A stretch of DNA of 32,538 nucleotides from NCBI GenBank assembly GCA_019310125.1, contig JAFDEW010000016.1, positions 1 through 32,538 on the forward strand, in the 5' to 3' direction. The notes under the pieces were generated by a model, which had not been told where the DNA came from, made no database searches, and was given only the letters and a program-made list of their open reading frames with translations. The position numbers and the translations under genes are program-made. Positions 1,914-32,538 of the stretch are shown piece by piece (the stretch's first letter is position 1; each line of letters begins with the position of its first letter). The stretch comes from Deltaproteobacteria bacterium (GTDB lineage Bacteria; Desulfobacterota; Desulfobacteria; Desulfobacterales; UBA11574).

Positions 1914-2074
1914 AAATAAAAATTTTCCGTGAAGGGGCCTTTATTTTACTTTTACCAAGAAAGGAAACACAATGCATTCCTGGAGTAAACGCCATGCCTA
2001 ACAGCAATCTCTTTTCCCAATACCATTTCACCTCCGGCTTGATGAATGAAAATTTCTGTTTTTTGCGGAGGCGG

Positions 2075-4399
2075 ATGACAAACTATCTTAAAATTATCAA
2101 TATAACGGCTCTGGTACTTGTACTTGCATTCACCGGCTGTACAGTAGCCCAACAGAATGTTCAGCAGCGACAGGTTTCTGATCCGGTTGCCGAAGGTCGA
2201 CAGATGGTAGAAAGGGTCTATACCGCCATCCAGACAAAATATGTCGAACCGGTTCATCCCTACCGCTTGCTCGTCAGTGCCGCACAGGGAATCGAGAAGG
2301 AATTCAAGGACGTTGCTTTGCTACATGAGATTTCAGGAGACATCAGGGTCCTGTCACCTGTAACCCGGAAAGCATATTCCATGGATATCTCGGAAACCGA
2401 TGCCAGGATCGCGTTAAATGAGATGTACGCTTACGGCGTGAACACCTATGGCAGAAGTCAACCGTTGAAAATTGCCTATGTAATGACAAACCGGATGTCT
2501 GAGAATCTTGATCCGCACAGCAGTGTGCTGACGCCGGAAGCGTTGAAAGAGCTTAAAATAGGTGCCAGCGGCAAGTTATCAGGAATCGGGATAAGCATTA
2601 CCGTGCGGGAGAAAAAGGTAACGGTCGTTACCCCTATTGAAGGATCGCCGGCATACCGGGCCGGCATCCAATCCGGAGATGTGATCTTGAAGGTTGACGG
2701 GGTGCCTGTTTACGATTTGCAAACGGCTGTGAGGGCCATGCGCGGAACGGCCGGCACCGCCGTTGTGGTAACCATTTCTCGAACCGGATTGCCGCATCCT
2801 TATGAGCTTCGACTGTTGCGGGAAACCATAACCGTCAAATCCGTCAAAACAGTGGCTTTTGATGCGGGTATCCACTACATACGGGTAGCCGATTTCAGCA
2901 ATGGAACGGCCAAAGATATCGAAGCGATTTTACGATGCCCAAAGCAATTTGGCATGCCCATGAAGGGTTTGATCATCGATCTTCGCAACAATCCCGGTGG
3001 CTTTTTGGGCCAGGCATTGAAATCAGCGGATTACTTTATCAGGGATGGACAATTGCTGATCGTCAGAGGACATACCACGGAAAGTACCCAGAAATTTTCC
3101 GCTACCATAGACGATACAGAGGGGGATTTTCCTGTTGTTGTGCTGATTAATAACGGCAGTGCCAGTGGCGCTGAAATTATGGCCGGCGCCCTAAGGGGTC
3201 TGGGGCGTGCTCTGCTCATCGGCGATGTAACTTTCGGCAAGGGATCGGTTCAGACGATCATGGATCTTCCAGGAGGATACGGACTGAAATTAACCATGGG
3301 GCTCTATGAGTTGCCCGGCGGTCGGAGAATTGACAGAATAGGAATTCAACCGGATATTCTACTTAGCACTGATGCCGAGGCTCTTCGGGAAAAGGACCTC
3401 TATGGTTCGGCGGCGGCTAAGAAAGGATCCGGTAGAACGGACAATGGAGACAAAGCTTTCAGGCAGTCAAGATACAACAAGCTGGAAGCTGGCCGTCTCA
3501 TGGAAGATCCGGCCATTGATCGCGCAGTGCAAATAGTGAAGCGGACACGATCCCCACTTTTAAAGGATATGCTTGCAGCCGACCTGTCAATCCAAACCGC
3601 GGCCGCATCGCCTGTTCGGCCGGCACTTCAAACCTCATCATCGGTTTCGGCGGGTATCCGGCCAAGGCTTTTTGTCCTAACCATAGGGGTCAGTCGTTAC
3701 AAGGAGGCACGTCTTTCCCTGGCATATGCTGAAAAGGATGCCCAGGCAATGGCTGCTGCCTTAGGGGCTCAGAACACCTCTTTGTTCAGGGAGGTTCGAA
3801 CAAAAGTACTGGTGGATGAGGCGGTATCGCGCGATAGCATACTAGAATCCATGAATAGCTTTCTGGGCCAGGCCGTATCCTCAGACGTCGTGCTGATCTT
3901 TGTAGCCGGCCATGGGATCAAGCGCTCGGCCACCGACACTTTTTATTTTCTCCCCCATGAAGCCAATTCTCAGAACATGACCACAAAAGGGCTCCGATGG
4001 TCGGATTTTGAAGAAGAGGCCGCAGCTCTCGGTGCGCGCGTGAAGAACGTCATCCTGATGCTGGACACCTGCCATTCCGGGGCACTGCAGATCGGTATGC
4101 GAGGAATTGAGGTCACCCCCGATCTGTCATCCGCTTTTCAACGAAAGGGAACCTATGTGCTCGCAGCGGCCAGTGCAGATGAGGCGGCTGTCGAGGCCGA
4201 TACATGGGGACACGGAGCATTTACTCATGCGATTCTTTCCGGGTTAAAGGGTGATGCAGACTATAATAGTGACCGAATCGTCGATGTTTTAGAACTATTT
4301 CACTATGTGGAAGCCAGGGTTGCCGACATGACCAGGGGACAGCAGCATCCGCGATTCCAGATGGGTGGAGGAGCTCTACCGTTGTGTGCATCGCATTAG
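2075..4399 (+). CDS. lipoprotein with PDZ/S41 C-terminal-processing peptidase fused to C14 caspase-like domain
   Basis: Lipobox LVLAFTGC; PDZ (GIGISITVREKKVTVVTPIEGSPAYRAGIQSGDVILKVDG); S41 core (GLIIDLRNNPGG, NNGSASGAEIMAGAL, FGKGSVQT); caspase core (VLIFVAGHG and VILMLDTCHSGAL). ORF opens at 1994; internal ATG 2075 with upstream GGAGG gives the better signal peptide. Confidence 0.88.
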   Translation: MTNYLKIINITALVLVLAFTGCTVAQQNVQQRQVSDPVAEGRQMVERVYTAIQTKYVEPVHPYRLLVSAAQGIEKEFKDVALLHEISGDIRVLSPVTRKAYSMDISETDARIALNEMYAYGVNTYGRSQPLKIAYVMTNRMSENLDPHSSVLTPEALKELKIGASGKLSGIGISITVREKKVTVVTPIEGSPAYRAGIQSGDVILKVDGVPVYDLQTAVRAMRGTAGTAVVVTISRTGLPHPYELRLLRETITVKSVKTVAFDAGIHYIRVADFSNGTAKDIEAILRCPKQFGMPMKGLIIDLRNNPGGFLGQALKSADYFIRDGQLLIVRGHTTESTQKFSATIDDTEGDFPVVVLINNGSASGAEIMAGALRGLGRALLIGDVTFGKGSVQTIMDLPGGYGLKLTMGLYELPGGRRIDRIGIQPDILLSTDAEALREKDLYGSAAAKKGSGRTDNGDKAFRQSRYNKLEAGRLMEDPAIDRAVQIVKRTRSPLLKDMLAADLSIQTAAASPVRPALQTSSSVSAGIRPRLFVLTIGVSRYKEARLSLAYAEKDAQAMAAALGAQNTSLFREVRTKVLVDEAVSRDSILESMNSFLGQAVSSDVVLIFVAGHGIKRSATDTFYFLPHEANSQNMTTKGLRWSDFEEEAAALGARVKNVILMLDTCHSGALQIGMRGIEVTPDLSSAFQRKGTYVLAAASADEAAVEADTWGHGAFTHAILSGLKGDADYNSDRIVDVLELFHYVEARVADMTRGQQHPRFQMGGGALPLCASH

Positions 4400-31751: not shown

Positions 31752-32469
31752 CTATGTGCTATCCGCTTGGCGCCCGGCGCTTAATGCCAGCAGCATTTCC
31801 TCTCTCTCGGCTCGCACCTGATCCTTAATCCTTTTGACATGGCCTCGGCCCAACCCCTTGACCTCACAGCCAAGTTCGAAATAGCGCTTGATTTGAGTGT
31901 CATCCAATATACCGAAGCAGTCGATGACTGCCAGCGGAGAGCCGGCGGTCTCCACTACTTTATCGGGGTCCAGATCTAAATAATGCTTGTGTCTGACGGC
32001 GAAAATAACCGCATCGGAACCACATAACGCCTGTGACAAGTCTTGCTCAACGTGCAGGTCGGTAAGTTTGCCCTGGCTGCGAAAGAACCTTTTCAGGCTA
32101 TGCGTCGGGGAAGGGTACTCGTCTTGCTTTTCAAATTCCCACCAATGCTGTACATAGGGGTCGTGCACCCTGAGTTCAGCTCCCATTTCGGTGAGTCTGC
32201 GAACGATCAACTCAGATCCGCTGTATCGAGTGTCTCCAACATCCTCGCGATAAGAGGCTCCAAGGAGCAGGATTTCGGCGGCCGCCAGCGGACGGCTCAT
32301 ATTGCGAAGTGCATCACGGGTAAGCTGGGCAACCCAGGGGGGTAATCTTGAAAATGTCGTCTTCAAACCCATGGATGTGTCGGTATGCCCACATACCCAG
32401 CCCACCGTCTTTGGGCAGGCAGTAGCCGCCAATGCCGGGTCCTGGAAAGATGATGTTGCTGTGGGTGGG
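31752..32469 (-). pseudogene. nucleotide-sugar dehydrogenase, C-terminal part, frame-disrupted near 32337-32342 and truncated at contig end
   Basis: C-terminal frame: VAQLTRDALRNMSRPLAAAEILLLGASYREDVGDTRYSGSELIVRRL...GCEVKGLGRGHVKRIKDQ. Upstream in another frame: SNIIFPGPGIGGYCLPKDGGLGMWAYRHIHGFEDDIFKITP. Could be assembly damage rather than a true pseudogene. Confidence 0.8.
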
Positions 32470-32481
32470 TTTTTTTTTTTT

Positions 32482-32510
32482 AATGATACGGCGACCACCG
32501 AGATCTACAC
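32482..32510 (+). other. Illumina P5 adapter sequence (contamination), preceded by a 12-T run at 32470-32481
   Basis: AATGATACGGCGACCACCGAGATCTACAC, exact 29-nt match to the P5 oligo. Confidence 0.98.
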
Positions 32511-32538
32511 CGTTTCGTTCGGCGAACAGGCTCCACTC

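Follow-up and report, generated by a model that had tools for sequence, protein, structure and literature searches.

The window, i.e., the whole stretch of 32,538 nucleotides that was analysed, ends in a sequencing artefact and not in biology. It is likely that this artefact is of Illumina origin and that a surface oligo, composed of ten T and P5 (T10-P5), misprimed on the flow cell and overwrote genomic sequence in place. The observed parts are an exact P5 sequence, gene sequence on both sides of it, a replacement of equal length, a match at the 3' end of P5, a run of about ten A/T, and recurrence in unrelated records, including recurrence of the P7 counterpart.

P5 sequence at the contig end

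As stated in the initial annotation, the 29-base P5 sequence (AATGATACGGCGACCACCGAGATCTACAC) is present without a mismatch at 32482-32510 of the plus strand. It occurs once in the window, in none of 100 dinucleotide shuffles, and as a single copy in the whole assembly (3,786,520 bases, 535 contigs), which contains neither the TruSeq core nor the Nextera mosaic end nor P7. Twelve T (32470-32481, plus strand) directly precede it, while 28 bases (CGTTTCGTTCGGCGAACAGGCTCCACTC, 32511-32538) follow it to the contig end; as had been remarked before, these are not the canonical TruSeq continuation, and in fact match neither TruSeq nor Nextera. The P5 sequence faces outward, its 5' side being directed towards the contig body, and no read-1 primer lies between it and the insert. 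The 28 terminal bases returned no exact match in viral contigs, and BLAST searches of the 69-base end against phages, plasmids and E. coli returned nothing beyond parts of P5 and weak matches due to chance.

Collinearity with a nucleotide-sugar dehydrogenase gene

When the six other genomes of the genus were searched at the DNA level, three matched the body of the region at 87-88% identity, and in two of these three congeners the outermost 35 bases matched separately, at a spacing identical to that of the window. The gene concerned encodes a nucleotide-sugar dehydrogenase, which is intact in L004 (561 aa) and there yields TIGR03026 and the domain order PF03721-PF00984-PF03720 (three UDPG_MGDP_dh domains), all above cut-offs; PF03720 is the only one of these three domains found in the ORF called in the window. 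The alignment with the congeners (L003, L004 and L005) spans the adapter block ungapped, so that the replaced length equals the block length, and at the protein level ten residues are swapped for ten (EWSLFAERNGVDL-GGRRIIKKKK-PTHSNIIF in the window versus EWSLFAERNGVDL-IKVLEAIRVR-PTHSNIIF in L004). The features of the contig end are listed in Table 1.

Table 1. Features of the contig end, from the outermost base inwards.
Positions	Strand	Assignment	Evidence
32511-32538	minus	Genomic, dehydrogenase codons EWSLFAERN, beyond the adapter block	24-25/28 versus L003, L004 and L005, ungapped, zero offset
32500-32510	plus	Presumed priming site, 3' 11 bases of P5 (GAGATCTACAC)	7-8/11 as in relatives; minus-strand GVDL unchanged
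32482-32499	plus	Foreign, 5' 18 bases of P5 (AATGATACGGCGACCACC)	1/18 match versus L004
32472-32481	plus	Foreign, T10, best read as the spacer at the 5' end of the grafted surface oligo; seen as A10 when read on the minus strand	2/10 versus L004
32471	plus	A single additional T, probably carried over by phasing	G on the minus strand in relatives; extra A also in Marfa
32334-32470	minus	Genomic, dehydrogenase central domain, true frame PTHSNIIFPGPGIGGYCLPKDGG...KITPL	Congener alignment
32333-32334	minus	Junction of a 32-base deletion versus all three congeners	Shifts the frame; N-terminus of the called ORF mistranslated
31752-32333	minus	Genomic, C-terminal UDP-binding domain of the dehydrogenase	PF03720, E 8e-18

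In minus-strand orientation, reverse-complemented P5 (rcP5) opens with the 11 bases GTGTAGATCTC, i.e., the stretch that agrees with the relatives at 7-8 of 11 positions and in its encoded residues. Beyond the ten A, 19 of the 20 following bases are identical to L004. The run of twelve A on the minus strand, which had been taken as the usual sign of a read running off its insert, is indeed present; its eleventh A corresponds to G in all relatives and its twelfth to A, and the whole run is best explained by the flow-cell oligo's T10 spacer plus one extra A and one genomic A. By this comparison the stretch that is demonstrably foreign is, strictly, approximately 32471-32499, while 32500-32510 is indistinguishable from native sequence; for masking, 32471-32510 is advised.

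Ordinary adapter contamination, i.e., short-insert read-through in which the run-off was kept at the contig end and the 28 bases represent an index and a degraded arm, was the explanation first offered for this locus. P5 is often met at contig ends, and most of the P5 matches listed from public contigs continue into TruSeq or Nextera sequence. Read-through contamination of reads has been discussed by Kircher et al. 2011 (PMC3163567), and the contig end resembles it in that a synthetic P5 was kept in the assembly and in that an A run follows rcP5. Unlike in read-through, however, the sequencing-primer part is lacking, the adapter overwrites the contig sequence and does not extend it, and native sequence lies on both sides. 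P5 is adjoined neither by the read-1 primer nor by an index with a Nextera arm, and the outermost sequence is not foreign, since 28 native bases lie outside P5. The supposed index and Nextera arm is gene sequence in three congeners, the earlier verdict that the last ~69 bp are non-genomic therefore fails for its outer 28 bases, which are collinear with the dehydrogenase gene, and a run-off is contradicted by the outward orientation, the missing primer and the return of genomic sequence in register. Contamination of this ordinary kind is thus very improbable.

The view that the P5 stretch is synthetic has held, as it is the exact oligo and the three congeners lack it at this position. A real genomic insertion, or a natural sequence, has only its presence in the contig in its favour, while an exact 29-base synthetic oligo that replaces conserved codons without a change in length reduces the probability of such an origin to a negligible level.

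The start of the called ORF, MVAVSLKKK, derives from the adapter and the A run, as had been proposed for its N-terminus; that proposal was incomplete, as the mistranslation reaches well past the adapter. The residues that follow, to about ...SRLPP, are encoded by native DNA that is read out of frame, since 32 bases present in the three congeners are lacking from the window at 32333/32334. This deletion sits ~140 bases from the adapter block on the minus strand, and may represent either a real mutation or another end-of-contig error. A search of the assembly for the remainder of the dehydrogenase gene showed that its N-terminal half is missing; sequence lying immediately upstream of the gene is present on contig C116. 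Elsewhere in the window, positions 1994-4399 (plus strand) encode a single 801-aa chain that combines a PDZ domain and an S41 peptidase domain with a caspase (C14) domain at its C-terminus.

Recurrence of P5 blocks in other public contigs

P5 was searched for in bacterial/archaeal and viral contigs, the bacterial/archaeal counts applying among the matches listed. Most of these lie at a contig end and are followed by TruSeq or Nextera sequence, while a minority are joined straight to non-adapter sequence, several of them deep inside contigs. In matches where the contig end does not truncate it, the run of T ahead of P5 has its peak at 10-12 among those listed (10-13 when the runs before P5 and P7 are taken together), with modes of 10-11 outside the window. 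Usable relatives were available for four unrelated cases of the direct P5 kind (L137 versus L257, L213 versus L352, L150 versus L350, and L156 versus L270), and in all four the offset over the block is zero, which indicates replacement and not insertion. The clearest are L137, whose relative has GTGTTGATCTTGGTG under GTGTAGATCTCGGTG, and L213, whose relative L352 itself reads GGTGTAGATC and in which a run of 13 A consists of A10 and three native A. The relatives of L150 and L156 are distant (4/11 and 6/11 at the P5 3' end), and the two cases therefore back collinearity more than priming.

When the five independent P5 cases, including the window, are pooled, the 3' 11 bases agree with the relatives at 36 of 55 positions (p about 3e-10, with 25% taken as chance, one relative used per case, and the value uncorrected for a choice of the 11-base boundary made once the window was known), as compared to 29/90 for the other 18 P5 bases and 12/50 for A10. 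Nonzero offsets were obtained with distant relatives: a local alignment of L156 with phage PAU (L268), which is too distant, is offset by one residue while three closer relatives give zero, and two distant relatives of L137 have nonzero ungapped anchors while two close ones give zero. No usable relative across the P5 site was found for L131 and L113, and phage BLAST for L150, L159, L363 and L356 returned adapter parts only. Frame continuity over the block was dropped as a test, as insertion and replacement both keep the frame because T10 and P5 together comprise 39 bases, a multiple of three.

P7 counterpart in phage genomes

If surface oligos misprime, P7 should show the same pattern as P5. 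A scan of viral contigs found the direct class, i.e., P7 joined to non-adapter sequence, for P7 too. In Klebsiella phage Marfa (L475, MN044033, NC_048798), rcP7 and eleven A lie over the portal gene at 99162-99195. The junction sequence in its relatives HMGUkp2 and Biddle_MM4 is ATCTCGTATGCCG, which matches the P7 3' end exactly at 13/13 bases. Past this block the Marfa sequence resumes with zero offset versus the relatives; the block introduces a stop codon into the portal gene, for which the annotation of the examined stretch contains no CDS. The offset is accordingly zero in all six cases for which a relative could be used (five P5 cases including the window, and the P7 case of Marfa), which come from different datasets.

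Several further phage records carry P7. In Proteus phage Saba (L477) and Vibrio phage D173 (L482), P7 preceded by ten or eleven T directly abuts coding sequence within annotated proteins, and eleven Vibrio D-series records have a P7 match at the same place. Escherichia phage G4507 (L476, 76684-76717) was considered as a case of overwriting and rejected, as it carries an ordinary adapter insertion in which P7, an index and a Nextera arm form part of a 177-base insertion; its annotation splits the baseplate hub/tail lysozyme gene into two CDSs, as compared to one in the relative G10400. In Klebsiella phage EI (L479, 64562-64595), T10, P7, an index and a partial TruSeq arm ending in GCTCTT are joined to phage sequence, a structure that a misprimed library primer would be expected to give.

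Proposed mechanism

The sequence comparisons suggest the following course of events. The insert would contain a site like GTGTAGATCTC, with which the 3' end of P5 can pair. During bridge amplification the surface-grafted T10-P5 oligo would anneal to this site and be extended, with the result that truncated strands (T10-P5-insert...P7) would share a cluster with full-length strands. A read from the P7 side would then report gene sequence, rcP5 and A10 off the short strands, which would be in the majority; where these end, the full-length strands would be called again, and genomic sequence would return at exactly the right cycle. Such a read would finally enter a low-coverage contig end uncorrected.

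In support of this course of events, the edge of the block coincides with the 3' end of the surface oligos, with about ten T on the 5' side and neither index nor read primer. The grafted Illumina oligo is presumably a T10 spacer followed by P5 ending in CTACAC. T10-P5 surface primers have also been described for a laboratory-made surface (PMC11123353). The 3'-end match points to priming. The simplest explanation for the return of genomic sequence in register is that the cluster was mixed and that its truncated strands were more numerous than the full-length ones up to the point at which they ended. We infer the flow-cell setting, the mixed cluster behind the resumption and the low coverage. 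As assembly in mid-contig needs reads with the junction between A10 and the genome, the resumption should already lie within the reads in the mid-contig cases.

The main rival is mispriming during library PCR by a primer ending in P5, where the truncated molecule was joined in register by the assembler or by a consensus step. It would produce the same 3'-end match and, after flow-cell seeding, the same T10, and phage EI represents a related library-primer case (P7, index and partial TruSeq). The contig end likewise resembles chimeras from PCR or adapter mispriming in that a foreign oligo is joined at an insert site resembling the 3' end of that oligo, but it differs from them in its exact surface-oligo ends, including the T10 spacer, and in the collinear resumption past the oligo. 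Library PCR primers usually extend past ACAC and GAGAT into the index and the read primer. Furthermore, zero offset does not follow naturally from this rival, because a cluster seeded by a truncated molecule has no full-length strands to restore the register, yet it is seen in every case with a usable relative. Library-PCR mispriming is for these reasons considered unlikely, if clearly less so than contamination, and mispriming of the surface oligo on the flow cell is preferred.

Implications

In biological terms the locus is a damaged copy of a common gene and holds no biological feature. More generally, we think it somewhat more probable than otherwise that the cases described here form a recurrent and apparently undescribed class of artefact, in which surface P5 and P7 oligos misprime during clustering and mixed-cluster base calling writes the oligo and A10 in place; a literature search found no paper describing surface-oligo mispriming with in-place overwriting. 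If so, trimmers that seek only TruSeq or Nextera cores would miss this class, which would get into the interior of finished genomes. As codons are replaced without a change in length, the artefact can pass length and frame checks, and overwritten genes give rise to chimeric peptides such as VDLGGRRIIKKK and FFFNDTATTEIYT. The RefSeq-listed phage Marfa, with a stop codon in its portal gene, is an example of a public genome with gene damage, and screening of contig interiors for T10-P5 and T10-P7 would reveal such cases.
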